From contig JAAOMT010000436.1 of the NCBI GenBank assembly GCA_016748015.1, positions 120,091-184,090 on the forward strand: a stretch of 64,000 bases of DNA, written 5' to 3'. Every line of letters starts with the position of its first letter. The stretch's first letter is position 1. Source of the stretch: Geosiphon pyriformis (taxonomy: Eukaryota; Glomeromycota; Glomeromycetes; Archaeosporales; Geosiphonaceae). The position numbers and the translations under genes are program-made. The notes beneath the pieces are model-generated. The model was not told where the DNA came from, did no database searches, and saw only the letters and a program-made list of their open reading frames with translations. This document shows, piece after piece, positions 17,916 through 63,600 of this stretch.

Positions 17916-17996
17916 AATAAAATTAAAACAACAAAAATATTTTTATTTTATTTTTTAACAATATTACAATTAATTTTTTTAAAATATTAAAAAACA
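17916..17996. other. AT-rich junction between LINE A and LINE C
   Basis: Short A/T-rich stretch; nothing else visible. Confidence 0.5.
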
Positions 17997-18149
17997 GTAT
18001 TTTTTTTTTTTTTTTTTATTAACATTTAACGAATGAAGTCCAAACACTACTTAAAACTATACATCAAAGAAATAATCTAAACTAAGTGCAAATCATGCAC
18101 TTTCTACATATAACCAGCCACTCAAGCCAGTCAAAATAACACTATGTAA

Positions 18150-29748: not shown

Positions 29749-30523
29749 AATACTGTTATTAGTAAAATTTTAGCCATTAATTAATATAAAATTATTTTTA
29801 TAATTCTTATTATTAATTAATATATATTATTATCATTTTATTATTACTTATTATTTAATTAAACTATCAAATATTACTATCTAATTAATAAATTAATTTG
29901 TATAATACACAATTGTGATAATCAAATTATACAATATATCATACTCTGTAATATTCAAAAATTTACAAAAATTTGTAGAATTTTATAAAATAATTCAATA
30001 GTTTACTAAAATAATTTATAGTTTGTAAAAACAACTTGAAATTTGCTAAAATGTATTTATTAAAACTATAACAAAAAAAAATGCAAGTTTAAAAATTAGT
30101 ACTACAATAAATTGTATAAAAAAAGACTTTTTTCTTCAAAAAATGTATCTTAATCAGAATTTTTTATTTTATCTTAAAAATACTTTAAAAACAAAATCAT
30201 TAAATATTTGCACTTAAAACTCTCTAAAATCCAATTAATATTTTGAAATTAATTAACTACTAATTTCAGTAATTCATTAATAATTTTAGACATAAACAAA
30301 AAACAATTATTTTAACAAAATTTTTTTTTTATATTTTATTTTTTTATTATAATTATTAAAGTAGTCTACAAATAAGATTTTTGTAAAAAAGTTAACTTTT
30401 ACAGCAAAGTAATTACACATTTTTAATAAGCTTTCAGATAAGCAATTTTTGGAAAAAAATTAACTTTTATTGTAAAGTAATTATATAAATAACTGATACA
30501 GAATTGGTTATTCTACTTATAAG
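29749..30523 (+). repeat. LTR-like repeat R2, copy 2, inside gypsy element Y
   Basis: About 0.78 kb similar to 25406-26665, lying between the 5' LTR of Y and its gag region. It starts TGTTATTAG and ends TAACAG. No matching 4- or 5-bp duplication was found at its edges, so whether it inserted as a solo LTR or belongs to Y is undecided. Confidence 0.45.
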
Positions 30524-30539
30524 TCTAACAGTTTAAATT

Positions 30540-31350
30540 ATAGAAAATAATTTAAAAATAAATTCAGTTATTAAAGATTCACTTTTAGTAATAGCAAATT
30601 TACAAAATAACATTAAAAATATTCAAGAAAAAAAACCAAAATTTTTTGATAATAATATATATACATAAATTGCAAAAGCTAAAAAACAATTAAAGTCAAT
30701 AATTAAAATAAAACCAAAACAATCTAAGTCTTATTCTTTTTTTTAATTGGAACTGCAGACTTATAATATCAAAGTCTTAATAAAAAACTGTCTAACTTTG
30801 CTATCTTTAAACTTGTCTTTTTATAGTATTTTTGTGATTTAAATATATTCATTAAACTACAAAATCAATTTAATATAATAAAACAAAAAGATTATAAAGT
30901 TGTAATCACTTATTTCGAAATATTTAATCAAACTTACTACAATTAAAAGAGACTATTACACTTTAGATCAAATTTTTAACCAATTTATTAAGAAATTAAA
31001 GAACAATATTTTTTAATTTATTAGATCTTAACATTCCAACAACTTACAAAAAGCAGTAATACTTGCTCATAATTTCAAATTAGCAAAACAAGAAGCCAAT
31101 TATACCCAAGCTATTAATTTAACCATAAATAAAACCTTTAATATTGATACAAAGCTTATTCAATTAAGTGAAAAATTGACTCAGAAAATTAAAATTTTTT
31201 TTTCAGAAGTATAAAAACTTATTAGCTATTATAATATAGAGAAAATACCAACAAATACTAATAACAACAACAATCTTAAAAACAAAATTTTCATAATTTT
31301 TATTATTGTCAAAAACCTAATTATATTGCAAAAAATTGTTACAAAAAACC
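30540..31350 (+). pseudogene. Gypsy Y gag remnant
   Basis: Many stops, but one frame keeps readable capsid-like sequence near 31035-31200 (FKLAKQEANYTQAINL, IQLSEKLTQKI) and a zinc knuckle near 31295-31345 reading YYCQKPNYIAKNC. The expected His is Tyr (CAT to TAT) and the first Cys is missing. This matches the gag pattern I associate with gypsy elements of arbuscular mycorrhizal fungi. Confidence 0.65.
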
Positions 31351-31899
31351 ATTAAATCAGAATTATAAAAACCAATATCAGCAATAATTCAAATATTTAC
31401 AATTCACAAAATTTTAATAATTCTTGTTTCTATATTAATAATCTTAATACTTTCTTCAATCATTATAGAATTATTATTAATACTTACAAGTAATATTACA
31501 AATAATACTTTAGTATTAAACTTTGTTATATAGTAACCTAAAATTTTAAATTATTAACTTTAATTAAAAATAATAAAACAATAGTAAAAATCAAACTTAA
31601 TCTATTATAGTGTTGTTCCAAACTATAAATTATAACAACCTATTACTTTGAACATTCTCAACAGAATATTCAAACCAAATTTTATATTTTGGTCTTATAA
31701 AAACTCTGAATTTTAGTAATGTCATATTTTTAGAAAAAAAACTGTAATTAAAATTATCAATTTTTTTTTAACAATAATTAAGTCACTTTCTAATATAATT
31801 TTTCTTACTGCAATTATTGAAAATAATACACTTGCAGCCATATTTTTATTTAATATTAACAGCCAAAATTTTGCTAACTTTTTTAACAAAGCTGTTATT

Positions 31900-34800
31900 A
31901 ACCAGAACAAACTAATTATAGCAATATATACTGATGCCAAAATAAAACAAATAAATATTAAATTAATATTTAACAATAGATTAGCAAACAATATAATTAT
32001 AAAACAACTTATGAATTAATTAAATATTAAATAAATTATATAACTACTATTAAAATAATCATTGTGGATAAAAATACCAAAACATTAATAAAAAAAATTG
32101 ACTATTTCTCTTTAAAATTAATAAAATCAAAATTTTAACTAAGGTATTTATTATAAAAGCTACTTAATATTAAGTTTTTATAAGAAATAATTGGTTAATT
32201 AAAGCCTATATTATATTTAATTAAAATACCCAAGAATTTTAAATCATTTTTAATAAACAATACACTAAAATACTTATCACATATAGATATTTTAAAACAA
32301 TAATTTTAAAACAATCTCTAATCAAATTTAAATAACTTATTCTTCAGCCAACTTTGAAAACTTATTAAGTTTTTTGGGCTAATAATTTCAAAATAAAACT
32401 ATTACTACCTTTTACATAAGAAAAAAAAGTCAAAAAAAAACTGATAAAAAACTACAGACATTAATATTAATTTACTTAGCTTTAAATCAAAAAAATCAAC
32501 CATATTAATTCCCAAAATTAATCTGTATTAATTGTAAAAAAAAGTTAATCTCAATAGGTATATGTATTAAAAACAATGAAATATAATTAATTGCTACCAA
32601 ATATTATTGCTGTCTTTGTATATTAAAATAATTTGAATAATCAAAATAACAAGATAAATAAAACAATATATTATGCTTTACATATAGTGAAATTTTATTA
32701 AATAAAAAACTATAAAATAATGTTTTTAGCAAAAAAAAAACATGTAACAAATTTTATTAATACACTATTTTAATTAATAACTGGACCAGAAAAAAAACTC
32801 TATTTATTACAGCTTATAGTTGAGCAATAAACTGACTAAATTCATATTTTTATAATAAAGAAAAAATTTGGAAAATGGCTATCATGAAATAAGAAAACAC
32901 TATAATCAATAAAATACATATTATAAAAATGTCTTAATAATTATAAAAAAATAGATAATCTATTTACTAATAATCCTAAAGCATTTTAAAACTAGTATTA
33001 AGAGCTTGCTTCTATTCAAAAAAAACAGAAACAAAAACTGATTAATCTTAATACAAAATTGTGTAATTATTATTTGATTTCTTGTTATTTTTAATGCTGT
33101 AATGAGTGCACTCTCTTGTTTAATTCACTTTTATGAACACTTTATCTCATTTTTAAATTCAAAAAACTCGAAAAAAAATATGTATTAGCAATAAAAAACA
33201 TAATATTTCAAAAGTTAAGTATGGCTACTAAAATAAAACAATATCTTATCTATTTTAATTTTTTCAAAAAATTAGAACTAAAGTGATACAATAACAATAA
33301 TAAAAAAATATGCTCCAAAAAAGCACATATAAATAATATTAAATTCAATTTAAGATACTCTAAACAATTTTTTATAGTTATAACACCTTATTTTTTTTAT
33401 AAAAATAGATCTAAAATTAGCTTTAGAAATTTCTATTAGTATTATAGTTCAAATTGTATCTTATTTTAGTTTTGTAAACAAAAAAATCAAAGTTAAAAGA
33501 AGAATAATTAATGTTAAATATATTGAGAATATAATTATAATACTTTAAAACAATTCTAATAAGTCCTATATAATCAAATTCCAAAAAAAATTGCACAAAT
33601 TATTTTTTTACTTCTTATAAAAAATTTTTATTTGATTTTAATAACTACATAAAAAAAATTAGATTTTACTACTCAAAAAATCCAAAAATTTGGCTTAAGT
33701 AGAAAAGGAAATATACAAGTTAGTTTTATAAAAGATGTCAGTAACAAGATAGAATTTATCTATATTAATATTGTTATTTCTATTTTTTTTATTAACAGTA
33801 TATTCTAAAAATTAATTAGAAAATTCAGAATAAGCTCTATTATTTAAAACAACTCTGAAAATTTGTTCTTTAGCCAATATTGTAAATTTGTATATATTTG
33901 TTAAAGCTTATAAATATTTCAAAATTTTTATTTACTATTTTACTGAAAATATTAAGATTTCCAAAGAAACTTTTATTGGTTCTATTTTTTTAGATATTCA
34001 AAATCTTAAAAAATTTTAATCTATTTTTAATTTTGCACAACTGTTTTATTTTACAATATTACTTTGCAAGTATAAAACCTACTAAAAGAAAGCTATTTAT
34101 TTATAACAAAAAAAATTAATAAACTAAACTTGAGAAATTTAAGTATCTTATAGCAAATATAATTCAAAATTTTTTTAAACCAATATGCTAATATCTTTAC
34201 TAGTAAAAACAAATTCGGACATACTAATATTATGAAACATAAAATTGATATAAGAAATATTAAATTTATTAAATAATAAGTCTATTAAGTGATCTCAACT
34301 AACAATAACTTGATTAAAAAAGAAGTACAATAGATGTTAAATAATGAATTAATCAAAAAATTACTAAGTTTTTAATCTTTATCTGTTATGTTAATTACCA
34401 AAAAAAATAAGAAAATTCGTTTTTGCATAAATTATTAAAAACTTAATAATATCACTAAAGAAAATGGTTATCTGACTCTTTTTATTCAAAAAAATTTAAA
34501 TAATCTAAAAAATAAAAAATAGTTCTTATTTTTAGATTTAGTTAGTAGATATTAACAAGTTAAAATAAATCTTTTAGACCAAAAAAAATGGCATTTACTA
34601 TCCAAGATAAAAATTTTGAATTTAATATAATGTTTTTTAAATTCTATAATATTACAGCTATTATTCAATATCTTATGAATATTATGTACAAGAAAATTTT
34701 TAAAAAATTAGTTATAGTATATCTAAATAATATAAATGTATTTTTTGAAATCTTTAATAATTATTTGCACTACTTTTAACAAGTATTTAATTATCTTTGG

Positions 34801-36860
34801 AATTTAAAACTAAAACTTAATTTTAATAATGTTTTTTTGAAAAAATTAAGCTAAAATTTTTGAAACACATTATTGACAAAAATAATGTAAACCAAATCTT
34901 AACAAAATTCAAAAGATTAAGAATTTTTTTGCTTTAACCAACTTACAAAAACTAAAAAAATTTTTAAGACTGGTTAAATACTATTATTGATTTGTCAAAA
35001 ACTTCTTTAATATTGTTAAATCTCTTTATTACTTATTGTTAAAACATGTTTCAATACTTATAAAGAGCTAGTTAACAAAAAGCTTTTAATTATTTTAAAT
35101 AACAACTTATAAAAACATTAATTTTAATTTATTTGAACTTTAATAAATGCTTTATTGTTATTATAGATGTTTTAAAAAATGCATTAGAAGTTATTTTATC
35201 ACAAATTAAACCTAATAATTAAAAACACCTAATTGTTTATATTAGCTATAGCACCAGTACTATTAAAAAAAATATATTGCTACTAATTTAGAATGTTTTA
35301 CTATTTATTGAGCTGTACAAAATTGAAGATACTATCTTTATTAATTATTTAATCTATATACTAATCACAAAAAACTTATTTAGTTACTTAGCAAACCACA
35401 ACTTAAAGAAAAGTATACAAGATAAAATACTTATTTGTAACAATTTTTATACAAAGTACATTATAAAAAAAAAGTTAAAAACATCAATGCTAACAGTTTG
35501 TTAAAAATAACTTAAATTTAATCTTAAATCAATAAATATAACCACCTATTAATAATTATATTAATATCTGTCAACATTTTAGTTTAAAGAGAAACTATTT
35601 CAACAGAAACAAAGTACTATATAAAAACAAGTTTAAAACTATTTTTTGTAGAATGACCAATTATATTGCCAAAAATACTAAAACTATATTATATTACAAC
35701 AAATTATAAAAAACAATAAAAAAAATTGTTTTATTTAACATATACTCTAATTTGACAACAAAATACTTCAACAAAGATACTATCTTAAAGAGAACAATTA
35801 ATTTATATTATTAACTAACAATATATAAAAATATTTTTAAATACATTTTTAATTGTAACTTTTGTCAAAAAAAAAGAGCCAAAATAACAGAACTATTTTA
35901 TTTCATTTTAATTAGAAATTTATTTGATAAAATTATAATTAATTTGGTTGAATTTTTTTTAATTATTTTCAAAAAAATTACTATATTATTATAACTATAG
36001 ATTATTTTATTAAATAGTTTAAAGTTAAAGCTATTTAAATAGTAAATACTAAAATAGTAGTCAAATTTGTATATTAAAATTTGATCTGTTAACATAAATA
36101 TCCAAAAAAATTATTATTTAACCAAAAAACTTATTTTGTCAATAGTATACTTACCAAACTAAACCAATAATTTAGAATAAAATAACCATTATTATTACTA
36201 TATTACTCTTAAACAAATAAACTAGTAAACAATTCAATTAAATATTATGTGAAATATTAATAAAAATAAATTATAAAAATATACAAGCATAGAACTTATT
36301 TATATTCTTAGTATTATTTACATATTAAACATTAAAGCAAAATATTACTCAATTTACACTATTTAAATTAGTTTATAAAAAAAACCACATTACTTATTGA
36401 ACAAAAAATATTTTTTCTTCTAATAAAAACAATTACCAAGAAAAATTTTGAAGTTATTTTGCACCAAAAAACATATTAGCTCATAAAAACATTAAAAACA
36501 ATTGTAAAACAGCAGCTAACAATATTAATAATATTTAAAAATAACAGAAAAAAAGATATAATAATTGTCTATCAGACCAACCAATTGAATTCAAGATTGA
36601 AAACCAAGTGTTATTATATTGTATTAAAACTAAAAAACAGTAAAGTGAAAAGTTTGATCTAAAGTGAGATAAATTATTTTATATACATAAAGTTTTAGAC
36701 AATAGAGCTTATAAATTATGATTAAAAAACAAAATTTTAAAGAAAACCATACATACAAATTATATTACATAATATAAAAATTGTTATTATTTGTATCTTA
36801 ACTAAAAACACAAATTCTATTAATTAAACCAGAAAATATATTATAAAATCTAAAACCAAT
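31900..36860 (+). pseudogene. Gypsy Y pol remnant: protease, RT, RNase H, integrase
   Basis: Protease is near 31920-32030 (IIIKQLMN); the catalytic Asp-Ser-Gly is changed to Asn-Asn-Arg. RT is at about 34330-34800, with FCIN/LNNITKEN, FLDLVSRY and the open piece 34588-34779; its YxDD at 34720-34731 reads YLNN (Asp to Asn twice). RNase H is about 35130-35500 (VLKNALEVILSQIKPNN). Integrase has an HHCC finger near 35790-35890 (CNFCQKKRAK), a core near 35900 where a catalytic Asp reads Asn (INLVEF), and a C-terminal part near 36570-36740 (LSDQPIEFKI, VLDNRAYKL). Nearly all losses are G-to-A or C-to-T. Confidence 0.75.
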
Positions 36861-37614
36861 TATTATTATTGAATACAATCTATATATAATAATTTAAATT
36901 ACATAAAATAAATATATAAATACTAAAAAAACAAAAAAAAAAGTTATTAATACTCTTAATGTAGATTTCTTAGACAAAATCTTAAAACAATTTAACAATT
37001 TATAATACCAATAAAAATCACAATTAATAAAAAAAGATACAATACAAAAATACAAATAAAAAAAAGATGAGCAAAAGTTTAATTAAAACTGAACATTTTT
37101 ATTTTTATGAATAATTAAGAGAAAAAAAAAGACATATAGTTTTATATACTAAAGAAAATAAAAAAAGTCTTAAACTAGTTAGTCATAAAACTAAACACAG
37201 GAAATTAAATATTAAAAATCTTCAAAACTTAAAAAAAAAAACTTTTATTAGTCTACTGGTTTTTTAAAATTGGTAAAAGATTAAACTTATAAATACTATA
37301 TTTAAACATTAACAAATAAATATTTAACAGAAAAACTTTTAAACAAATGAAAAAATTTATTAAAAAAAACAATTTAATGCTATATTATATGACAATATAT
37401 TAACTGTATTCAGCATTTAAATACTGTTTACTTATACTATTAGACAATTTATTAAAAACTATTACAGTTAACAACATAAAACAAATAACAAATTTATAGT
37501 TTAAAGACTTACAAAAAGCAATACTCAACACAATAATTAAATATTATATCAAAAAAACAATCTTTACAGATACATATAATTTTGTAAAAGCTTAATTCTA
37601 AAAGAAAAAAATAA

Positions 37615-38605
37615 TGTTATCTGAATAGAAAAACCAATTCAAAGTTATTAAAAAATATAATTAATATATAATAACATAAAAAAAATATAATAATACAAAA
37701 TAATACAAAATAATATATAACAATTTAAAATAACACAAAATAATACACAATAATGTAAAATAGTACAAAATAACTAATTATAATATAAAATAATTAGTTA
37801 TAATATAAAAAAACAAAGCAATAATAAAAATAATAAACAATAACTAATAATAACAAACAATCAAAAGCAACCTTATAAAATTAAAGAATATGTATAAAAA
37901 TAAATAGTTTTAGTAAATAAAAAAAGACAAACAAAAAACAAAAACTTATTTTTTTAACATATCTTGACTTTAACTTGATAAAACTTTTTTATCTTATTTT
38001 TTTTATATTTTTATATTTATTATTAATTTAATTTACTTGTATATAATTTCAGAATTTATGTTATTAAAATCAAATTGATTATTTCTCTTATTTTTATTCT
38101 AAGCCAGATATTATTAGCATAAATAGCTTTAAAACTCTAACAACTTGAACTAATTACTCTTAATTATAACAATTAATAATATGAATTTTTTTTTCTTTTT
38201 TATTTTTTCTTGTTTTCTTGTAAAATAACAACATTAAAAATTAATTGTCAGAAAATAAACTTCATAATAGTTTGATTAAAAAAAAAAGTTTTTATTAGAT
38301 TTTTGAATATTAATTTTATTTTATTAATTTACCAAAAGAGTAAAAAGACAATACTAAACATTAATAACTTTATTTAACTAACTCAAAAAAAATAGCTTAT
38401 ATTTACAATTACAAACCACTAAAAATGCATTTCTGTGCTTTATAACCAAAGAACTTTACAGATAAATTTATATATAATAGAAACTATTAAAGATTAATAA
38501 ATTTTAGTATATTTTTTATGTAATTAAAAGAAATCTCACAGCTTTTTTACTCAAATTCAGAGTATTAAACATTATTACAATACTTTACCAAGTTTATCTA
38601 TAATA
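37615..38605 (+). repeat. 3' LTR of gypsy element Y
   Basis: 991 bp, starting TGTTAT directly after the polypurine run and ending ATAATA before the ACAA duplication. Differences from the 5' LTR are mostly T/C and A/G. Confidence 0.8.
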
Positions 38606-43410: not shown

Positions 43411-45237
43411 ATGAGTGGTCTTAGTATTAAGAAAAGATCAGCCAGAGTCTCATCCGCTAGTTCAGTTGGTGGAGGTTCAACTCAGAATGTCAAAAAGTCT
43501 CTCAGTAATATCAAACTCTTAAGTGCGAATAAGAATCTCAAAGATAGTAGGTCTGTTTGTATGGATGGACAGTTTGTTAACATGAATACGGATGGAGAAA
43601 CCTCTAATGGTAGCAGCACATCTGACTCCTAAATGAATACGCCCAATGCGAAGTGTTTCAATACTGGTACGGCTATCAGTTTCCCTATTGGCTCTATTAG
43701 TTATAACATGGATGATGAGAAGAAAGTTTCTTTTCCTTTCTGTTTGTCTTTCTCTTTAGAAAAGGTGTGGGTGGACCCCAAAATTGTCAAGTCTCAGGTG
43801 AAAGTCACTGTGAAGAAGTCATTTGCTTTGGACATCAATCTATCTGCTGTGGAAGGAAAGTCGGCTACGGCCAAGACTCAGGTTATCAGAAAGTTATTTT
43901 CAATAATCAATGGTTTTGGGGGGACCACCACTTCCTCAAAATTTGAGGAGATTATCCGATCAACGTTTACTTCATCTGAAAGCATGGAAAAGGCCACATC
44001 ATTGGCTGGAGAAAATAACATTATAGTAAACAGTAATCTTAAGAGACAAGGGCTTCATTCAGATCGAGCTGTGGTAATCAAAGAAATTCTCATGAATATG
44101 CCTAAAGACATGATCATTACTGTAGTCTCCGAATTTGGGCAAATTGTGTCAATCAAAATCCAGTTGGTTGGTATATGGCAGAAGACTGTGGTAGAATTCA
44201 CCGATTCAGACCAGACTGTACAATTGGCTTCAAGATGGTCATTTCTAATTGAGAAAAATTCGGTTCATGTGGCTATGGCAATAGAAGATCATGATACATG
44301 GGCTTCCAGGAATCAGTTTAGAGTGCTGTTGTTTATTTTGCTGGTGAGTACAACTGCGCACAATCTTGGCACTCTTTTAGAAAAGGCTGGTGGAAAAACT
44401 TGCATCATCAATTGTTCATTGGAAACTGGCAATAGATTTCATTGTGCTGTGGTTGGCTTTGAATCTATTGAGAAGTTGGAATCTGCTTTTCTCACTGAGC
44501 CTATTTTTGGTGGAGTGCATCTCTCATGGGCTAGGCTGAATTTGATTTGGTGTGGGAAGTGTGGGCATTTTGGTCATTCTATTCTGGAGTGTGATGCATC
44601 AGTTGAGTTATCTTCTGGCCTCCCAAATACATTTAAGAAGTTTGCTTTTAGTTTTGATCATATCCAGTTAGCCAGGTTGTATGTGAAAAAAAATGTTCCT
44701 ATCTCTTGCCCTGCTGCCTTTGGCAGAAAATCTTGGGCACAAATGATGTCTTTTGCCTCTTCTTCTGGTGGCTTCTCTTCTGGTTCTGGTTTGCTCTCTG
44801 GTGGTAAGCCTCTTTTTTTTGGTTCTTTTGGTTCTCAGGTCGATGGTTTGGGTGATTGTTTGGCAGTGCTGGAGCATTCTTTGGAAATTTTTTCAGATCA
44901 GGTTTCTGTTATTCTCAAAAAATTGAGTTTTGTTGATCTGGTGCCTTTGGCATCCACTTCTTGTGCTCCTCCTGCGGCTGGTTCAGTGCCTTCAGCTCTG
45001 GTTGTGGATTCAGGTATGGCTCTGGATGATGTGTTGGCTCTGCCAGTCTCCTCTTCTTCTGGTAGTGATGAGCCTGCTGCTGGTTTTAGTTCAAGTGGTA
45101 CTAAAGTGCTTACCTCCAAGATGGGTGGTTTGGAGTCCAAATTGTCTGCTCTGGAAGCTTTGTTTGGCTCAATTCTGGTGAGATTGGATCTATTGTGTTC
45201 TGGTTCAGGCTTGTCCTTACCCTTTTTATTCCAATGA
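43411..45237 (+). pseudogene. LINE D ORF1
   Basis: A 608-residue frame from ATG 43411 broken only by TAA 43630-43632, explained by CAA to TAA. It contains an RRM-like stretch near residues 225-290 (MPKDMIITVVSEFGQIVSIK), a zinc knuckle CGKCGHFGHSILEC starting at residue 381 (CX2CX4HX4C), a Ser/Gly-rich linker and a C-terminal coiled segment (MGGLESKLSALEALFGSILV). It ends CAATGA, where the TGA overlaps the ATG of ORF2 (ATGA), implying coupled translation. It should bind the LINE RNA. This is the least damaged ORF1 here. Confidence 0.85.
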
Positions 45238-48200
45238 GTGACCTGGTTTGGAAATTCACTATGTGTAATGTATGGGGTCTCAATGTTTCTGCTAAACAAG
45301 TGGATGTTCTCTGTTGGCACATGGATTCTGGCTCTACAATTTCTTTTTTAACTGAAACAAAATTAAGATTATCTGTTGGTCTGTGGATCAAGGATAAATA
45401 TAGAGAGGTCTGTATCTTCACTTTTAAGTTGGATATTAGTTTTCTCAGTGCTGGTGTTGCCATTATTATGAATGATTCTTTGGCTCGTCATGTCTCTAAG
45501 GTTGAGGAAGTTCCTGGCCATGTTGTCACTGTGCAGCTTTTGTTTAAGAATAAATTTTTGGTTTCTGTTATTAGATTGTATGCTGGTGTTTCCACTGGTG
45601 TTCATTTTGGTCAGACTTCTGAGGTAAATTCTCTTATTGCTAAGACTGTTAACTCCAGCACCTTTGTTGTTTTGGGTGGGGACTTCAACAAAAATGGGTC
45701 TAGAAGAAGTGCAAGCTTCAGATTCTGCTCGAGTTTAGGTTTGGTCAATTCGTTTTCTGATTATCCTTTAGTCGGAGCTACTACATGAGACAATTCTAAA
45801 GGGGTCAAAAAAACTATTGATTTCATTTTTGTTAGTGAGAATTTGGCTTCAGCTGTGGCTGGCCATAAGATTGGCCTAGTTTTGGACTTTTTTAACACAG
45901 ATTACAGTACTGTTATGGTCTTTGTTAAATTGGGCGGACTCTTGAATGTCAGTTTGAATAGCTTGCACAAGCAGGCTAACAGAAATCACTGGAAGTTTAA
46001 TATCAAGAACGTGGATGTTACTAGATGGTCTCATTTCAGGGACTGCTTCTCTGTCATGGTTTTGGGTATGAAGGATAATTTTCTTGCCACTGCTGCTGAG
46101 CAAAATCTGGATGCTATGTGGTTTTTGCTGGAAAAAATATTAGTGGATTCTGCAGATGAAATCTTTTTTTGGCATTGGTTCAGTGAATTTTAATGTTTGA
46201 AAAATAGACTTTCCTCTAGGTTTTTGGGCTTGGAGTTGCTGATCGTCAAAATTGTCAAAAAGTTTGGCTTGGCTGATGTCTTTGGTTTTAATTATCTTGT
46301 GAAGAAATGGTCTATATTGGATGCTGACAAAGCTCTAGTGTTGATGGATATGGTTCAATTGGGTCAGGGGAAGGTTGCCATTCTTAAGTTCTTGTCAGTC
46401 ATCAAAAAAAAGTACAGAAAGTCCAAATTGTATGAATCAATTTTGGCACAGGAGACTTATATCAGGGAAGCTATTGAAAGATGCATGGAGAAGTTTTGTT
46501 CTGACAAGGGTAGCATGATCAGGAGTGTCTTGAATCAGCCCTTTCAAAAAGTTGTGTTAGATCATTTAGTCGTTAACGATAAGCTTGTTTTGGAGCCTGA
46601 AAAGGTCAAATTGAAGGTTGACAGTATTATGGAGGATTGGACAAGGAGGTGGATGGTGCCTTCAGTGCTGCCTGATATCTGGGCTCATCAGTATGCCCCT
46701 TTGGCTCATGTTAAGGATAATGCTTTTTCTGGTGTTATGAGTGCTATCACTTTGGATGAATTGCTTTTGGTTGTTGGTGGTTTGCCTGATGGCAAGACTG
46801 CTGGTTTGTCTGACATTCCTAATGAACTTTGGAAGTGGGGTGGTGAGGAAGTAATGGAGTGTTTCTTGGTTTTGTTGAATATGTGTTTGTCTGTTGGTTC
46901 AGTACCTGCTTTATGGAAGAGAGCCTGGATCTCAATAATTCCAAAGCCTTATAATTGGGATGGAATCCTAACAAACACTTGCCCCATCGCATTGATAGAA
47001 ATGGCCAGAAAGATTCTCTCCAAGATTCTCTCAGATAGGATTTCTTTTGTATGCAGTAGGTTTGGCATTTTCTATGGTAACAACTTCTCAGTGTTAAAGG
47101 GTACATCAACACAATCTCTTGTGTTTGCTATTGGATCGGTGGTTAAGGATGCTCTTGAGAAAAATAGAGAACTTTGGTTAGTTTTACAGGATATGTGCAA
47201 GGCATATAATTCTGTTGATTGGCACCACCTAAGAGCTAGTCTGCGGCATATCAAAATGTGTGGCAGGTTTATTGACTTTTTTGATAGCATTCATGAAGAC
47301 AGAGTTAATAGGGTTATGACTGATTTTGGTCTTTCGAATGGTTATAAGGTGCATAATGGCCTTGATCAGAGTGAAGTCTTCTCACCTCTCCTTTGGAGAA
47401 TCTTTTATGACCCGCTTTTGTGTGAAGTTAAAAGGCATGAACATTTGTGTAGTTATCGTATTGATACTAAGTTTGTGGCAAAGACTGACAGAATTGAGAA
47501 TAGTGGTAGGATGACTTCATTCTTTGCTGCTGGCGCTTTTGTGGATGATACAATTTGAGTTGAAGATTGTTAAGCTTCCATGCAATATGCTTTAAATATT
47601 GCTAGTGAGTTCTTTTGTATCAATAATATTTCCATAAACAATGAGAAAACAGTGACTATACCTATTAATCAAGGTGTCAAGGTTGCTGCATTGAATATAA
47701 GTGGTTGGCCGATTTCTGTTGTCAGAAAGGACAAAGCTCACAGATATTTGGGGATTTTTTTGTCAACTGAAGAGTTGTCTAAACTGAGTTTGGCTAAGGC
47801 TTACTCAGACATTCATTTTTTTGTTAATAGGGTGCTCAGGAAGGCAATCACAGATAAGCAGTTTTCATATTTGGTGTTAGCTATTCTACAGCCCATTGTT
47901 AGTTATTGTACTCAGTTTAGTTTTGTTTCATCCAGTGTTTACTGCAGGTGAAATGTTTTAGTTAAGAAGGGCTTCAGATCTAAGGCACATCTACCTCATG
48001 ATTTTCCTGATGCTGTTCTGCATCATTCTTTTCTTTATGGTCTAAAATCCTTTAAGCAGATGCAGTCTAAAGAGAAGATGGCTTCTTTGGTCTCATTTGC
48101 TAATACATCTGGTATTCTTGGCCACTTGTTTGAGCATAGATTTTTGGATTTACAGGTTCTAGGTTGGGCCTCTTTGAATCTGTTTCAGTACCCTGTCAAG

Positions 48201-49925
48201 TTGTGTGTTAGTCTGTTAAACAATTTTTTAGCAGGTGTGATGAAGCTTTTTATGAATATTGATCTTTTTTTGGTGAACAACCTCCCCAATGCTTTCCATC
48301 ATCCTGGTCATTTCCTGATGTTTTCAATTCTTGGGAAGTCTTTGTACTTTGATTCTGTTCATTCTCTTAAGCGTTTTGGTGTTGCTTTTGGTGATCGGCT
48401 TTTCAATAAAAAAGGGTTGTTGTTGGATTGGAAGATGTTTCGTCATTGGAAGCGTTTAGATTCACAGGGCCCTGTGCCTCTTTGGTTCATGGTTGCTTCT
48501 AAGTACTTTTTGGATCAGGGTCTTTTTTCTTCTCGCCCATCTGTTGCTGTCCAATCTGGAGATTTGACTATTTTGGAGTCTGATGTGTTTTCTTCCGTGC
48601 AGGATGGTTTACATGAGATTTGGTTTGGCTGTTTTGAGGTGTATACAGATGGGTCTTTGAAGGGGGCTGGGTCTGCTGATGTGTTAAGTGGTACGGCTGC
48701 ATATTTTCCAGCTCTGGAATTGGGTGTTGGAGTCAAAGTTTGTGGCCTTTTGTTCTCTACTATGGTGGAGTTGCAGGCCGTTGCTCTGGTTTTGAAATGT
48801 GTTCCATTATCTAGTTCTGTGGTATTGTATCTTGACAGCCAAGCTGCTATTGATGCGTGCATTTCTGAAATATTACTTGAGATTCCAGATTTCCGCAGTT
48901 GCTGCTGGGTCGAAAGGAGGCATATTTTTAACTTAATTAGGGATAAGGATCTTGAAGTGAGTTGGGTCAAAATCAAAGGTCATGCTGAAGTTCTTGGCAA
49001 TGTGGAAGCTGATAAATTTGCTGGTGAGGCTGTCTGCTCCTCTTTTGTTTTGCCAATGAGAGTACGGGAGCATTTTTTGGTGGCTGATGACATGGTGGTA
49101 TCGGACAATGCCCATCACTTTGTTAAAGATGTGTTTAAGTCTGTTTGTCGTGCTCGTTGGGAGGCTGGTCCTGGTCGGGATGTGGTTTCAGCTAACATGT
49201 TGGGGGAATTTGATTGGGCTGCTTCTGCAAAAGTCTGGCATCCTGACTTATACATGCTTGCTGGGTTTACTAGCTGCAAGTTGGTGGATCTTCATACATA
49301 TTTGATGAAAGTGTTACATAAAAGATTGCTGGTAGCAGTCAGAAAAAGACTGTATAACAGATGTTATTCAAGTGTTCAGTGTTTGTTGTGTGGTGAAGTG
49401 GAGCTGCCAGACCATGTTTTCACTTGTTCACAGGATATTCATATCCGGGAGGAGATTTTGCTAGAGGCTTCTACGTGATGGGTTTCTTTGGTTGGCATTC
49501 GTGATCTGTTCTCTTCTTCAGTTCTTCGGGTCCTTGATTCTTGTCATTCGGACATTAACAGATATTCAGTCTTATGTAAGGATTTTGTGATGAAGGTTTG
49601 ATGTGCTGAGACGGCAAGTGTTTTCGACAATGTTAAAAAGACTTCCCATATTGTGGTTGACTTTGTGAGGTTTTTGGCTGAGTTGCATCGATCTAGGGTC
49701 TGGTTGATTAGGTCTAGGTTCAGGGCAAACATGGAAAAGGCTGGTTTGGTCAGTAACAATGGTTTGGTGTCGGGTCTGTTCCATTGTGTGTCTTCTGTGC
49801 TTTCTGATGGTGTGGTAAGGATGCTTGACATTGCTGAGTCTTTTGCTGTCAGTTTTGGCCGTCTTAGGCCTAGCCTTTTTTTTTTGGGTCTGGATGGTAG
49901 ACTTCGTGTTAATATTAATGTGTAG
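45234..49925 (+). pseudogene. LINE D ORF2: endonuclease / reverse transcriptase / RNase H
   Basis: One frame of 1563 codons without a frameshift but with seven stops: TGA 45786, TAA 46191, TGA 47556, TAA 47571, TGA 47949, TGA 49476 and TGA 49599. Most replace Trp; the two TAA may be former Gln. Domains: apurinic-type endonuclease (residues about 1-230; WKFTMCNVWGLN, GGDFNKNG), RT (about 550-780; MCKAYNSV, GLDQSEVFSPLLWRIF, FVDDTI), RNase H (about 1135-1280; VYTDGSL, MVELQA, LDSQAA, GNVEAD) and a C-terminal CLLCGEVELPDHVFTC from about residue 1383. RT motif A has Asn (AYNSV) where the second position is usually Asp. The enzyme would nick target DNA and copy the LINE RNA onto it. Confidence 0.88.
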
Positions 49926-52430: not shown

Positions 52431-52557
52431 ATAATTACACAAAAAACTTCTTTTTCTTTTACTTCCTAAAATCCTCAAAAAGACGCATTTCTGAAAAAGA
52501 AGTTTTCTGTTTTTTCTTGTCAAATCTTTCAACATTTCTTTAAATAATCCTTTCGTC

Positions 52558-54432
52558 ATGGATTTGAAGACTGCTTCGAGCAGTGATATGTCCAAAAAAA
52601 AGGTCCCCAAAGGTGCTTTCCATGGTCCTACTGGTGGTTTTTTTGCTCAGAAAAAAAAGGTGGTTCTTAGGAATGTTAAACACTCTGGTAATGAGAAGGA
52701 TATCTCTTTGAGTAAATCTGGGCCTGGTAATAGTGTGTATTCTGATGTGGATAGTATATCTGGTGATGATGAGGATGTTGGCATGTCTGGTATAAATGAG
52801 AGATCTCCGTTGGGCTCGGCTGCCACTACTCCCAAAGCAAAACGTGTTAATACTGGTATATTGTTCGGCTCTCCACTTGGTTCTCCTAATTTTGCTATGG
52901 ATGATGATGAAATTGTGCTTCCTCCTTGCTTGCCTATCTCTCTGGAAAAAAAGTGGATTGATCCAAAAATTATTAAGACTCTTGTGAAAGTATCAATCAA
53001 AAAATTCTTTGCATTGGATATTGATCTCTCAGCTGTAGAGAGTAATTCAGCAACAGTAAAGATCCGGCTAATTAGGAAAATTTTTTCTTCAGTCAATGGT
53101 TTTGGGGGGGCCACTACCCCCTCAAAATTTGAAGGGATTATCAGATCTACCTTCACATCAGAGGAAAGCATGAAAAAGGCCATGTCATTAGCCAGGAAAA
53201 AAGAGATCATTGTAAACACTGATTTCATGAAATCAAGAGTACGTTCAGATTGAGCCGTGGTGATTAAAGAAATTCCCATGGATACCCCGAAGGAAATGAT
53301 TGTTGCTGCAGTTGCCAAGTTTGGAGAAATCAAGTTGATCAAGATTCAGTTAATTGGCATGTGACAGAAAGCTGTGGTAGAGTTTGCCAAATCGAGTCAA
53401 GCAGATTAGTTAGTGTCAAGATAGTCATTCTTAATCAGGAAAGATTTAGTGCATGTGGCCAAAGCCGTGGGAGATTGTGATATCTGGGCCTCTAAAGATC
53501 ATTTTAGGGTGCTTCTGTTTACATTGCCAGTGGGAACAATGGCACATGATCTTAGTAATCTTTTGAATAGGGCTGGTGACAAAACTTGCATCATTAATTA
53601 ATCACTAGACACTGGTAATAAAATTCGTTGTGCTGTGGTTGGCTTCAAATTTGAGAATAATCTGAATTCTGCTTTTCTCACTGAGTCTGTTTTTGGTGGT
53701 GTTCGACTCTCATGGGCTAGATTTGATGTGATTTGGTGTGGGAAATGTGGGCGTCTTGGTCATTCAGCTCTTGAGTGTGATGCTTCGAATGTATTGTCTC
53801 TTGTGCCCTTATCTTCATTTAAAAAGCCTGCCTCCAGTGTCAATCGCCTCCAGCTGGCCAAACTGTACACAAGGAAAAATGTTCCTATCTCTTGCCCTGC
53901 TGCTTTTGGTGACAAGTCATGGGCCCAAGTGGTGTTTTTTGCTCCCTCTTCTGGTGGTTTCTCTTTTGGTTTTGGTTTTGATTCTAGTGCCTTCTCTCTT
54001 GGTGTCCCTGGTTTAAGTGGTGGTGGTCCTCTACTTCCAAATGACGATTATTCATTGAGTGCTCGTTTGGCATCTTTGAAACGTTTCTTGGGACTCCTAC
54101 ATGATCAGGTTTCTCGTATTGTGCGCAAACTTAGTGGCATGAATTTGGTGCCTTTGGTCCCCTCTCCTTCTTCTTCTGGTGTTTTGGCTGTCCCAGCGGC
54201 TGCCGATATTGATATGATTTTGAATGCTACTCCGACTGTTCCTGTGGTGACATCTTCACTTCCTTCTGTTGGTTCAAATTTGGGTTCAAGTAGTTCAAAA
54301 GTTTTGACCTCTAAGGTGGGTTTTTTAGAATCCAAGCTGGTGGCTCTCGATGCCTCTGTTGGTACAATTCTAAGGAAGTTTGATCAGTTGTGTGCTAGCT
54401 CGGGGTCTCAGGTGTTCTCCTATTCCCAATGA
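52558..54432 (+). pseudogene. LINE E ORF1
   Basis: A single frame of 624 codons from ATG 52558 to TGA 54430-54432, with five internal stops at 53251 (TGA), 53362 (TGA), 53407 (TAG), 53422 (TAG) and 53599 (TAA). At the first, copy D has CGA; at the second and fourth, TGG; at the third, CAA or CAG is the likely source. The zinc knuckle CGKCGRLGHSALEC starts at residue 394 and the C-terminal coiled segment (LESKLVALDASVGTILRKF) is present. The last stop overlaps the ORF2 start as ATGA (54429-54432), as in D. Confidence 0.85.
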
Positions 54433-57400
54433 GTGACCTGGTTTGGAAGGTGGCTACGTGTAATGTAAGAGAAATGAACAATTCTGCGAAACAGGACGAT
54501 ATCATTTGTTGACATAAGGATATGAACAATTTAGTTTCTATTTTCACGGAATCAAAATTAAAGGGAAAGGTTCGCCCCTGGATTGTCAACAAATTTGATG
54601 ATGTACGGATGTTTATCTCTGGTTTGGAATCTGGTTATCTAGGTGCAGGTGTGGTGATTGTCATGGATTCTTCGTTGGCGTAACATGTTTGTAAGATTTT
54701 GGAAATGCCTAGTCGGCTCCTGTCCATCAGGTTGCTTTTCAGGAATAAACTGTCTGTGTCAATTTTGGGACTGTACATTGGTGCCTCTTCGGTGGCTCAG
54801 TTTTCTCAAGCTGGTGACATCAACTCTCTTATTGCAAAGGCTGTTAATAAATCTTCTTTCATTATTCTTAGTGGTGATTTTAATGAAGACGGCTCTCGTA
54901 AGTGTGCAAGTTTTAGGAAATGCCTGGACATGGGTTTGGTTAATGCCCTGAGTGGGAACTCCTGTAGGAAATTGCCAACTTGGTCTAATTCTTGGGGCAT
55001 TGCTAAGACAATTGATTATGTGCTCATTTCTTCAAATCTAGTCAATACAGTGGTGAGTTGCAATGTGGTTAGTGTTGGGGAATACTTTGATACTGATCAT
55101 CAGGCTGTCTCAGTGTGAGTGGGTTTAGGCGGTTTGCTAGATGTCCAGTTGAATTCTGTCCACAAGCAGGCAAATAAGGATTGCTGGAAGTACAATTGCA
55201 AAGGTGTGGATGATATTAAATAGGCCAAATTTGAGAAAGATATTGCGACAAATGCTGCTATGTTTTATGATAATTTTTTTGCAGCCAGGATTCGCTTGGA
55301 CTTAGATTCGATGTGAGTTGCTCTTCGTAAAGTGATGTGTCTGTCTGCTGAGGCAGTTTTTAAGAGGAAGTGGTTTAAGGACTTTGATAAAATTTTTAGC
55401 AAGGAATCATCCAAGTTTCACAGGCTAGAGCTCTTGGTGTCTAAGTTAGTTAAAGCATCTTGTCTGGATTCTGCTGAGGAGTTTACATCCTTGCTCAACA
55501 GGTGGGAAGGTGTGGATTCAGTCAATGCCTCTATGGTGAGGTCTCTCTTCCTGTCAGGTTCCCACTTCGATGCTATTCGGTCAGTTTTGTCCAAAGTCAA
55601 AAAGTCTTATTGCTCCTTCAAGATGTCTGAAGCAGAGCGGGTTAGAGAATCTCAGATCAGGTCAGCAATAGATAAAAGAATGAAAAGTTTTGAATTGGAC
55701 AAGAGTCATACTATTAGGAGTGTGTTGGAACGTCCTTTTCGCAAGGTAACTTTGGATCATCTGGTTGTTGATGATGCGTTGGTGTTGAAGCCTGATTTGG
55801 TTAAGACCAAAGTAGATGCGGTCATAGAGGGTTGAACTAGGAAGCGCAGTGTATTTTCTGATGTTACTGGTGTCTGGAGTTGCCAATACCAGCCTTTGGA
55901 GTATGTTTTTGATGATGCTTTTTCTGGTATAATGTGCCCGATTGATTTTGATGAGATGTCTAGTGTCATTTCAAGTCTGCCTGATAGAAAAGCAGCTGGT
56001 CTCTCTGGTATCTCGAATGAGTTGTGAAAACATTGCGACAAATCAGTTCTGGATATGCTTTTAGTGCTTTTGAATGTTTGCTTGGTGTGTGAATCTGTTC
56101 TTGGACCTTGAAAGGAGGCTTGGGTGTTGATGATCCCTAAATTATATGAGTGGGAGGGTGTTTTCACGAATACCCGTCCTATTGCTTTGATTGAGACGGC
56201 TTGCAAAGTCCTTTCTAAAGTGCTTTTGGACAGAATTTCTTTGGCTTGTAGTGTTTTTGATGTTCTGAGGGGGGATAATTTTTCTGTCTTAAAAGGTATG
56301 ACAACGCAATCTCCTATTTTCGCTATTAGATCAGTCATAGAAGATGCTTTAGAAAAGAACCGAAAGCTGTGGCTGGTCTTACAGAACATGTGAAAGGCTT
56401 ATGACTCTGTTGGTTGAGAACATCTGAGGAAAAGCTTGGTTAGAATAAAGATGTATGACAAATTCATTCGGTTTTTTGGTAGCATTTACAATGATTGGGT
56501 CAACAGAGTTATAACGGATTTTGGGTTGACCAATGGATATCAGGTACATAATGGCTTGGACCAAGGGGAGGTGTTTTCTCCTCTTCTCTGGCGCATATTT
56601 TATGATCCTCTTTTGTGTGAAGTTAAGAGACAAGAAAGTGTATGTGGATACAGATTAGACTCTCGTTTTGTTGCCAACACTGGTCGTGCTGAATTTCGGG
56701 CTGGTTTGACTTCTTTTCTTGCAGTTGGTGCTTTCGTTGATGATACAATTTAGATTGGTAGCAGCCAGGCTGCCACCCAACATATTCTCAATGTTGCTAG
56801 TGATTTCTTTCAAGTCAATGACATCTCAATTAATAATGACAAGACAGTGGCCATTTCCATTAATTGCAAAGTTTCCAATTCTTATTTGTTGATCAGTGGT
56901 TTGCTTATTTTGATAGCCAAAAGGGGAGAGTCTCATCGATATCTGGGTATCTTTCTGTCTATTGAAGGTTTGTCTAAGCCTAGCTTGGCTAAGGCACACT
57001 TGGATGTCCAGTTTTTCATCAACATTGTTCTAAGAAAAGCTATCTCTGATAAGCAGTTCTCATATTTGGTCTCAGCAGTTCTTCACCCCATTATTGCCTA
57101 CAGGACTCAGTTTAGTTTTGTTTCTATTAGTGTGTGTGCAAAATGGGACACTATGATTTGTAAAGTTTTGAAGTCCAAATCTGGCCTGCCATTCGACTTT
57201 CCCAATGATGCTGTTTATCATCCTTCTTTGTACAGGTTGAAATCTTTTGAACAGGTCCAGGCAGAAAGCAAGTCAGCTGCTATTGTTTGCTTCACTAATT
57301 CTGTGGGTATCTTGGGCTGCTTGTTCGCACATAGGTCTCATGACTTACAAGTTCTCAGCTGGCGCCCTCGCCACTTCCTGCTTTTCCCTTTTCGTATTAG

Positions 57401-59117
57401 TGTCAGTCCTTTGAATAATTTTTTGGCTGGTGTTGTCTGAATTTTTTTGGGTTGCGACCTTTCTCTGGGTGGTCTCATGACCAAAGCTTTTCGTTTTCAA
57501 AAAGAAATTCCAATGTCTATTGTTCTTGGCAAGCCAGCTTTTTATAAATGTGTCTCTTCACTTCGGCGATATGGAATTGCCTTCGTTGAGCAGTTTCGCA
57601 ATCGAACTGGTTCTGCTTTCGAATGGAGGACTTTCAAACGGTGGAAGAGACTGGACCCTCGGGGCCCGGTTCCTGATTGGTTCAATGTTGCTGTTCACTT
57701 TTTGTCTGGTTTCAGGTCTTTTCCCGTTCGCTCCCTTTCACTACTGAATGTTGCCTCGTCTGACATCCTCAAGTCTTGTGAGTTTGATGTTGTCTGCAAT
57801 CATTTGTTGGAGGTTGATTCTGATTGCCTTTCTTTGTTTACGGATGGTTCTCTGTGTGGGCTGGGTACTCTTGGTATGAAGGCTGGCGCCACTGCTTTTT
57901 TTGGGGACATTGATTTGGGTTTAGATGTGGAAGTTTCTGGTTTGGTTTCTTCTACCATGGTGGAGTTACAGGCCATTGCTTTGGCTCTCAAGTGTGTTCC
58001 TCCTTCTCGTTCGGTCAATCTGTTTTCAAACAGCCAGGCTGCATTGGATGCTTGCAAGTCAGAGTTAATGTTGGGTCGTCCAGATTTCAGAAATCGGTGT
58101 TGGGTCAAACACCGCCATATTTCTAATATCATTTGTCGCAAGAATTTGGATGTTAATTGGATTAAAGTTAGAGGTCACTCAGGGGTCTTGGGCAATGAGC
58201 ATGCTGACACTTTGGCTAGGGCTGCTGTGTCTTTTGGTGTGCATCTTCTTTACAGGATTGATGAACATTTTCTCAGGGCTGGTGGTGCTATGGTTTCTGG
58301 TAATTCTAGACATTTTGTTTGTGGTGTTTTCTGCTCTATTCACCATGCATATTGGGAGGTTGGTTCTGGTTCTCGGGTTTTGGTGAACAGCCTGCATGCT
58401 GATGTTGATTGGTCCAGATCATGTTCAGTGTGACATCCAGACTTTCATTTGGCCGCTGGTTTCACTAGTACTTGTACTGCTAGTTCTCGGACATATTTTA
58501 TGAAGGCGTTGCATTATTGTTTTTCTGTTGCTGTGCATAAGTGACTGTACAGTAAGGGGTACTCCAGTGTGATGTGTTTGTTCTGCGGTAATGTTGAGAT
58601 TTCAGATCATGTTTTTTCTTGCCCTTTTGATGCTGGCGATCGTGCTCAGTTAATAAACGCTCATGCATCTGTTTGGAAAACATGCTCGGGTTTGTCTTGC
58701 TCAACTTTACGTGTTTTGCAGTCACTTTCTGATTGTGCTTTCAATGCTGTTGTTAGTACAGCTATAAGTAAGGGCTTTGTTTTCAATGAGTGGTATCGTG
58801 AATCTCTTTCTGTTTTCAAGGACTCTAAAACAGCGGCTCAAAATATTGTGGCTTTTGTTCGCGAATTCTGTCTTGTATTCTGTGATGATATTTGGCTGGT
58901 GCATGTAAAACACAGAGCTGTTATGGAGAAAGGTGGCTTGATCCCATGTGATGGCTCTATTTCTATCTCGGTTTCTGGTCTTCTTTCGATGCTCTCGTCC
59001 GGTGTGGTTAGATTGTTGGATATTACTAATGCACTTGGTGTTAGTTTTGGGTTTCGTAAATCTAGTTTATTCTTTTCAGGTGTAGATAATTTGGTCTCGG
59101 TGCATATAGGTGCCTAG
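54429..59117 (+). pseudogene. LINE E ORF2: endonuclease / reverse transcriptase / RNase H
   Basis: One frame of 1562 codons with 14 internal stops and no frameshift: 54510, 54681, 55116, 55221, 55314, 55833, 56025, 56109, 56391, 56415, 56751, 57438, 58431 and 58542. At eight of these copy D has a TGG Trp codon at the same place, and at 56751 LINE A does; D itself has a stop there. Domains as in D: endonuclease (SGDFNEDG), RT (HNGLDQGEVFSPLLWRIFYD, FVDDTI), RNase H (LFTDGSL, MVELQA, FSNSQAA with Asp to Asn, GNEHADTLA) and C-terminal CLFCGNVEISDHVFSC from about residue 1383. It cannot be translated in full under the standard code. Its near-perfect collinearity with D makes the pair ideal for scoring mutations. 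Confidence 0.88.
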
Positions 59118-59246
59118 TGTTGTCCTGACTAGTCTGAATGACTGGTCATGTGTAGAAAAAGCATGATTCATGCCTAGTTTAGATCACTTGTATAATGTAT
59201 TGTACTAGGTAGTGTTTGGATCTCACTTGTTAAAAAAAAAAAAAAA
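59118..59246 (+). other. Conserved LINE 3' tail (best-preserved example)
   Basis: About 115 nt plus poly(A) after ORF2. The same tail in diverged form follows A, C, D, F, G and H. It contains a short self-complementary segment: GCATGATTCATGC here, GTGCATGATTTGCAC in C, GTGCGTGAGTCGCAT in H. It probably serves as the RT recognition site; that role is inferred. Confidence 0.7.
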
Positions 59247-59255
59247 ATAATTACA

Positions 59256-60682: not shown

Positions 60683-63600
60683 TTAAGGCTCTGCCTCCAC
60701 CATCATTTTGATTCCCATACTCATTAATTCGGTCGCAAGATATTTAAAAGCGAAAGGTATTTTGACATGAACAACATGCTCAGCTGTGTTGCAAAGGCTA
60801 CAAACTACATGGTGCTTCCTTCGTTGTCGTTCACGATCCCGAGGTGCCAATGAAAGCGCAGAGAAAATAGAGCCACACTTTCGACAGACTAGGCACTGAT
60901 GGGATATTGAAAAAGGTTGAGAAAGGGAAGGATCAATTTATGCATCGAAATATAATATCAAATCACCTGAGAGTAATCAGAGCAATTCATTAATCGGTCT
61001 TGCAAGCAAAAACTCATCCCGTGTGCCAGCATAGAATCCCGTTCCATTTCTCCAAAACGTACCCCACCATGCCGAGCACGGCCACCAATTGGTTGCATTG
61101 TAAGATTGTGCACTGGCCCAGTCGAACGTACTTGCCATTTATCTGATACCATATGACGCAAACGTTGATAAAATACAACACCAATGTAAATATCTGCGTG
61201 AAACTCTTCTCCAGTCACCCCGCTATACAAAGGTTCGTTTCCGTGATAGTTGTAACCCGCACGAAGGAGTTGCTCCCCAAAGTGATCCATTGCAGGGTGT
61301 TTCTCATCGAACCTGAATGGGGTAGCATCTTGTGCAATTCCATGCAATGCACCAGCTTTTCCTGCTAGACTCTCGACAAACATCCCGATTGTCATACGCG
61401 AAGGGAAGGCATGTGGATTGATGATAATATCAGGCTGCATCCCACTCTCAGTAAATGGCATGTCATACTGTGGCCATAATTGCGAGAGTACACCTTTTTG
61501 TCCATGTCTTGAAGAAAATTTATCACCGATAACCGAAGGTCTTGGAATTCTTAGCTTAATATGTGCTCTTTGAGCTTCATATTGTCCTAAATCATCACCG
61601 AGCAATCTTACTTGATCAACATATGCCATTTCAGGCCCCTTGTAGAATTTTACATAGGTGGTTCCCTTTGTATCGTCGAAATAAGCATAGAGTGGATCTC
61701 CTTCAACCAAACGGATTCCAACAAAAGGCATTCCATCTTTGTCCAGTTTTTCTAAAACAGCATCATCTACATCACTGCCTAGCATAAAATGATGCTGTAT
61801 CGGTTCACCTCTTCGACGCATTTCATTCAAGTCTATTACTTCAGATTTATAGATGGTACCGTATGCGAAACCACGATGATGGGATTGCCTGTTGACAATC
61901 ATAGCGTCTTCCATATCATAACCTGCATAGTCAAAATAAAATTAAGAGAAATAGCTTTTTTTGCATCATGAGGCCGGACAAAAATTTACCTGTATAGGCA
62001 AGAACGGCAACAATAGCATTAGTCCCGTTTGGAAATCCATCTAAGCCATATTTATTGTAAATCTCTGGCCTAGCAATGGGGGATTGACCAGATTGTAATC
62101 GATAAAGTTTGTTATCTGTTCGATGTGTTAGAGCTGATCCTGGAGTCCCCATCGTTTGTTTACTCATCTATATTGAGAAAGAGTAAACTACGTTAATATA
62201 GAGGGCGAATAAAAAAAAACATAATTAAGAAGCCAATTCATAGTCCAATACGTGACCTGACATTGATACATGTTTCGAGGACTTTGATTATGATCCGAGA
62301 ATGGTGTTAAATTCGCTAGAATGCTGAGTATATTGGTCGGAGATATTTCCTGATGTGTTGTGATTCCAGGCACAATATCTTCATCCAAACAAGCAATGTT
62401 CATATAGACCTGTTCGAGAGAACAAAATAATATAGACAACGGAAAGGTGAATTTGCCAGATCTTCCATAGCATACCTGTTCAAAAGTGCCGATCAAATCC
62501 GTCTTGCCGTTAGCTAAATATTTGACTGGCCGCATCATACGAGCCATCGAGGTAAACAAATAAAGACCTGGAAATAAGCCACCATTTGATGGGGGCACAT
62601 AAGCAATTTCAAGTTGCATTGGAATCTATTATTTAAAAAAAAATCGACGTGTTAGAGGTGAACAAATAACCTAGATATCAGAGCAAAAAAATTTACCCCT
62701 TTTTCGCCTAGAACCTTCCATAACCTTAAGGTAGTTGCAAGTCTTTGAGCCACCACGGCCGAACACACTCCAATAATTCGCCCATTTAAAAGAACGTGCA
62801 AGATTTTTCGTTCTCGACTATCTCTGCCTGAAAATTCCGGTTCTAATAGACCTAATGGGGCCAGTAAAGACTGGATGGATTCCATGTTAAGATCTGAAGT
62901 GATGATCTTACAACTACAAGAAAGGTGGTTTAATAACCCGCAAGGAGACCCATCTGGAGTATGGACAGGACATATGAAACCTGATTGAAAAGAATTTTCA
63001 TAAATAAGCCTGTGTAAAAATTATGATTGGGAGAAAAAAAATTTAAATATTTTTAAATACCCCAAGCTTCTGGAAGCAGTTTACGGACACTAGTGGTTTT
63101 CAGCTCCGCAAAAAACGAACCACGATGAACGCAACGAAAATGGGAGATATACCGATAAAAATTGAGCTTCTCCGCCACTATAGTATATCCACTTGACTAC
63201 GGAAAACCGACTTGAGTAATTATTGAATATGTTTTTCAAAATGGCAAAAATGTTGGAGTCTTACCTGTGATAAGTCTAACCCTGTGTTAGATATTAGGTT
63301 GCCTGTAGCTAAGAAATAGGAAAGTTTTTGTCCGATTGCTTCGCTCCTTACTTTATTAATGGTTTTCTCTACATAAATTTCTGAAGGAAGTACCGATTCG
63401 AATTGAATATGAAATTTTATTTCTTGAATAAGATCCCCAATCGAAAACTAAAACATACTATTAGTAAAGTCTGGCTTTTGCTCTTTATTTGCGCTATTGC
63501 GAATATCTGCGGCAAATGTAGCTTTGATTTGATTAAGATAATCTTGAAGTTTCTCTTTAATGATCATGCCGTATAGGTGGCCACTCAAAAGGATCTCTTG

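Follow-up and report, generated by a model that had tools for sequence, protein, structure and literature searches.

Structure of a LINE copy with internal stops

Geosiphon pyriformis belongs to the Archaeosporales within Glomeromycotina. The window, the whole stretch of 64,000 nucleotides analysed here, sits in contig C330 of a genome of 124.7 Mb and holds the following features:

52440–59246, + strand: full-length, hypermutated LINE copy E, aligned end to end with L009 and L011–L013 at 91%
52431–52439, + strand: left target-site duplication (TSD) of E, ATAATTACA, identical to 59247–59255
59247–59255, + strand: right TSD of E, a perfect 9-bp match to the left one
59232–59246, + strand: poly(A) tail of E, 15 A, read from the sequence
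52558–54432, + strand: ORF1 of E, 624 codons plus stop, 5 internal stops
54429–59117, + strand: ORF2 of E, 1562 codons plus stop, 14 internal stops; endonuclease, reverse transcriptase and RNase H
43638–49500, + strand: LINE copy D of another subfamily, in which the signature recurs on comparison with its own sisters over 1.36 kb; CpG observed/expected (o/e) 0.21
17996–24723, − strand: LINE copy (the A/B region of the earlier note); CpG o/e 0.22
60958–61914, − strand: gene fragment resembling the RNA polymerase I second subunit (by eye), an unmutated comparison; CpG o/e 0.78

E is a non-LTR retrotransposon (LINE) with endonuclease, reverse transcriptase and RNase H domains, a poly(A) tail and a TSD. 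Its ORF2 matches Pfam RNase_H over the cut-off (1e-13), as well as Exo_endo_phos_2 (2e-5) and RVT_1 (2e-4), both under the curated cut-off. ORF1 contains a CCHC-type motif, CGKCGRLGHSALEC, recognized by eye, and the ATG of ORF2 overlaps the ORF1 stop (ATGA). The earlier note had described E as carrying 19 internal stops with an intact TSD, a poly(A) tail and no indel; our count gives the same stops (5 + 14), and relative to the family majority E has 0 insertions and 0 deletions. Its sisters hold 0–2 small indels each, except for deletions in L010, so the scarcity of indels is not peculiar to E.

Family comparison and substitution spectrum

The in-window copy D had been taken as the sister of E. 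Its identity to E is only 68–71%, rendering it unfit to date or polarise E's changes, and polarisation by D was dropped. The true sisters are five full-length copies elsewhere in the genome (L009–L013, ~91% to E), which form a star with E, all being ~91% identical to each other. Two further copies match E at ~90% in ORF2 and 82% in ORF1, and twelve (L016–L027) match it at 86% in ORF2 and carry an unrelated ORF1 (about 53%); ORF1 appears to have been swapped between these LINE subfamilies. LINE fragments were scored for the best 40 candidates. Changes in E were polarised by the family majority and outgroups. At polymorphic transition columns, the outgroups carry the C or G state in nearly all cases, which makes the direction of change secure.

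Against the family state, 343 of 361 substitutions in E (95%) are C:G>T:A, comprising 160 C>T and 183 G>A, next to 9 T>C, 0 A>G and 9 transversions (ts:tv about 39:1), with the sisters alike. Aligning E with its family copies and counting substitution types thus revealed a large transition excess and confirmed the suspected hypermutation, a surplus of C-to-T/G-to-A changes unaccompanied by indels, as real and not special to E. The sense-strand G-to-A bias proposed alongside it disappeared per site: C>T affects 0.121 of C and G>A 0.101 of G in E, a lean opposite to the proposed one, and the five sisters range over 0.115–0.140 and 0.093–0.119, respectively. Along E, the two kinds of change are scattered among each other as in simulation, with no strand-coordinated runs (p=0.35); in some sisters, hits lying within 30 bp of each other share a strand marginally too often (p 0.02–0.04), at most a weak effect. 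Mutation density is even along the 6.8 kb of E. Each LINE copy carries C>T hypermutation at about 5% of its sites, and the dose is Poisson-distributed among copies (mean 367, variance 380).

The inferred ancestral ORFs of the family contain 0 internal stops and just the two terminal ones, indicating that the stops were not already in the master copy. The 19 stops of E derive from 12 TGG>TGA/TAG, 3 CGA>TGA, 1 CAG>TAG and 3 compound changes, giving a single-hit G>A:C>T ratio of 12:4. A strand-symmetric, context-dependent model at E's dose predicts 13.5±3.4 stops, 9.0±2.8 of them via G>A, where E has 19 and its sisters 8 to 14 (the two terminal stops subtracted). The G>A lean among stops, formerly read as a sign of strand bias, arises from codon ascertainment, because stops are reachable mostly via TGG. 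The stops are a by-product of C:G>T:A mutation, most of them from TGG and CGA codons. Nonsynonymous fractions of the changes match neutrality, indicating that the changes postdate loss of selection on the copies.

CpG-led context and sequential hits

Hit rates per strand reach 33% at CpG, 10% at CpC and about 6.5% at CpA and CpT (CpA 0.063). Outside CpG, cytosines are hit at about 5–15%, mainly those preceded by a pyrimidine, which increases hits there 1.5- to 2-fold. CpG accounts for 45% of hits and non-CpG positions for about 55%, and each LINE copy has lost about 64% of its ancestral CpGs. There is no TpCpG preference (TCG 0.318, ACG 0.345), and no CHG-type methylation context was found, the CHG rate lying below CHH.

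Double hits (CG>TA) are strongly depleted relative to strand independence, with 38 seen vs 170 expected in the E family and 67 vs 267 in a second group. Those second hits that do occur at CpG come at nearly the non-CpG rate. This deficit indicates that CpG hits were sequential, methyl-CpG-like and spread over more than one round; such partner exclusion is an indirect sign of methylated cytosines. Hits per CpG site in the E family fit a binomial distribution. A base-calling artefact at methylated sites is unlikely, given that CpG hits are scattered binomially among copies rather than all-or-none, and is also disfavoured by the absence of indels in E.

By the conventional RIP indices, E scores negative (product 0.65, substrate 1.46). 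CpA-based indices miss a CpG-led signature because CpG loss raises CpA/TpG.

Transitions against transversions

Across 190 ORF2 pairs, transitions follow 2.96 tv + 7.26%, i.e., ~7.3% transitions at zero transversions. ORF2 pairs with tv <0.15% average 7.9% transitions (ratio 67), and the extreme pairs reach 8.4/0.09 and 7.4/0.13 (ts/tv, %); this transversion clock counts few events per pair, and reverse-transcriptase errors add to the transversions. At fourfold sites, 749 C>T/G>A changes vs 60 transversions accumulated within copies, and the ancestral states of the subfamilies differ by 65:30 (ts:tv 2.2). Per site, CpG loss exceeds the transversion level seen between the closest pairs several hundredfold, and non-CpG C>T exceeds it roughly 90-fold. 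In mammals, methyl-CpG hypermutability is about 25-fold.

Other transposons and non-transposon controls

All 20 of 20 related LINE copies are hypermutated, and the signature recurs in another LINE subfamily, that of D, and in LTR elements of the Gypsy type. The D subfamily shows 7–10% transitions at 0.15–0.3% transversions, and truncated LINE copies of only 1.3–1.4 kb carry the full dose. Among Gypsy gag sequences, an older group shows 6–7% transitions at 0.07–0.15% transversions and a young group 1.5–1.9% transitions with ts:tv near 9; the rate relative to transversions therefore differs among elements, LINE and young Gypsy copies being about fivefold apart in dose at similar transversion distance. 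The young group is 98% identical (C244, C403 and C310), and a first look gave over 3000 Gypsy gag candidates genome-wide, many with open frames.

Controls outside transposons comprised one DNA methyltransferase (DNMT) gene duplicate and the Sel1 genes, a large family in this genome that is under selection. The single DNMT pair (1.1 kb, about 94% identity, one copy broken) has ts:tv 50:22 (2.3) and five gap openings. Thirteen Sel1 paralogues have a mean ts:tv of 1.08, with 91 C>T+G>A vs 87 T>C+A>G. Transitions in E thus exceed what genome-wide AT-biased mutation would give, as judged by these controls (2.3 and 1.1).

CpG o/e is 0.8–1.05 in the gene stretches of the window (1–10 kb, 60–64 kb), 0.40 in E, 0.21–0.22 in the older LINEs and about 0–0.15 in most AT-rich blocks. 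This split, together with the spared controls, indicates that the process is compartmental. The AT-rich blocks at 12001–18000 and 26001–38000 (13–22% GC, CpG o/e about 0–0.15) contrast sharply with the gene stretches at the window ends and are possibly long-eroded transposon sequence. GC content is 29% in the window and 29.25% in the published assembly (PMC9453076, Table 1).

Methyltransferase genes

PF00145 searches matched, among others, a DNMT1 at C96 (182 bits to mammalian DNMT1) and two DIM-2/DNMT1-like genes, at C355 and C327, whose BAH match is weak. A further DNMT1-superfamily gene, accompanied by a broken duplicate, lies on C318, and a locus on C346 is DNMT2-like as judged by eye. A predicted DNMT1-class gene is hence present in this genome. 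The duplicated gene lies at:

G000:C318:788280–789372 and 820713–821336: DNMT gene and its broken partial duplicate, inverted, about 32 kb apart

One weak match to uracil glycosylase was found in the genome. Loss of this enzyme as a genome-wide cause is made less likely by the non-transposon controls.

Interpretation

The mutation is very probably a post-integration process, restricted to transposons, strand-symmetric and led by CpG. Transposon restriction in the samples tested, strand symmetry, context, sequential CpG loss, dose and the presence of DNMT genes are directly observed. With moderate confidence, we further regard it as actively accelerated, of methylation type and aimed at transposon chromatin. 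Methylation of the cytosines, the identity of the acting enzyme and acceleration as opposed to passive decay are inferred. In the proposed mechanism, LINE and LTR copies, once integrated, would be mutated from C:G to T:A on both strands, the target being transposon chromatin and neither cDNA nor duplication as such. Transposon cytosines would most likely be marked by at least one of the DNMT1/DIM-2-like methyltransferases of this genome, and the resulting 5-methylcytosines would undergo deamination, or escape repair, much more often than ordinary mutation would allow. CpG would be the main target, with the partner strand spared after the first hit and several rounds taking place. New copies would be killed, a RIP-like outcome for which homology alone would not be required.

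The most serious alternative, possible though in our view less likely, is passive decay: heavy transposon methylation at CpG and some non-CpG sites (related Rhizophagus methylates its transposon CpGs; PMC8647823), spontaneous deamination of 5-methylcytosine and poor T:G repair in heterochromatin, with LINE families extinct together, copies about equally old and nothing actively mutating them. Such decay would account for the CpG-led context, the sequential hits that spare the partner cytosine, the Poisson dose and the binomial site distribution. It fits poorly with the rates relative to transversions, which far exceed the mammalian value, with the majority of hits falling outside CpG and preferring a 5' pyrimidine, and with the fivefold gap between LINE and young Gypsy doses.

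Classical RIP, in which any duplicated stretch of sufficient length is recognised premeiotically, and mutated, by a RID-like enzyme, is very unlikely. The Neurospora-type system (RID; DIM-2 pathway) resembles the present case in converting C:G to T:A exclusively and on both strands, in its confinement to repeats, here of both retrotransposon classes, and in killing transposons and leaving AT-rich relics. The Geosiphon process is led by CpG, with CpA among the lowest contexts and negative indices, and does not follow duplication as such: the 1.1 kb gene duplicate and the large Sel1 family, albeit a small sample, have ordinary spectra. The RIP-like option of the earlier note therefore stands as to strand symmetry and fails as to the Neurospora type.

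Plain neutral decay, with mutation biased towards AT across the whole genome, would suit so AT-rich a genome, yet for the samples tested is scarcely credible given the indel-bearing non-transposon duplicate with its low ts:tv, Sel1 genes in which C>T equals T>C, CpG kept in gene stretches and the modest fourfold ratio between subfamily states. First-strand cDNA deamination by a cytosine deaminase during target-primed reverse transcription (TPRT), favoured in the earlier note, draws on a G>A excess seen among stop codons only, a bias that codon content predicts; we give it practically no credence in view of the symmetric per-site rates in E and all sisters, the absence of strand runs or clusters in E, CpG partner exclusion, the uniform dose and the same signature in LTR elements, which do not use TPRT. 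APOBEC-type editing of retroelement cDNA has C-to-T hypermutation and a 5' pyrimidine preference outside CpG in common with the Geosiphon pattern, which lacks its strand bias and clusters.

A parallel in context is the CpG-type RIP-like mutation of basidiomycete transposons, which is tied to Masc2-class DNMT1 (PMC4352252). The Microbotryum system likewise combines CpG-led C>T in transposons with DNMT1-class genes (PMC4352252), and differs in its TpCpG preference, absent in Geosiphon, where more than half of the hits are non-CpG and the phylum is another. A 2025 kingdom-wide survey found RIP-like signatures only in ascomycetes (PMC12543289), and for Gigaspora margarita PMC8647823 cites work that detected no RIP. 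Negative CpA indices may explain these earlier RIP-negative results. Within the openly accessible literature, we found no report of such mutation in Geosiphon.

Tentatively, Glomeromycotina, a group for which RIP-type mutation has been reported as lacking, may defend themselves against transposons by active mutation that takes its direction from transposon methylation rather than homology, a reading to which we give somewhat less than even weight. If true, this defence would be invisible to CpA-based RIP screens and would have inactivated all sampled LINE copies. Transversion-anchored transition counts combined with the CpG double-hit test offer a way to screen other early-diverging fungi. Transposon ages derived from Kimura distances may come out too high in such genomes, and the process may explain the CpG-free AT-rich blocks between gene islands.

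Additional observations

Two E-related copies each have an opposite-orientation LINE of 66–70% identity, tail to tail, 20–70 bp downstream:

G000:C220:206162–210279: L014
G000:C397:363250–367330: L015

The SSU rRNA was located by exact primer pattern. One unit (L038, 256–2072) lies near the end of contig C320 and is the sole complete SSU rRNA recovered from the assembly. Judged by eye, several of its near-universal positions have undergone C>T/G>A changes; for example, CAGCCGCGG appears as CAGCCACGG. The unit resembles a mutated remnant bordering rDNA that the assembly does not cover, and its changes suggest that non-transposon repeats may be less than fully exempt.
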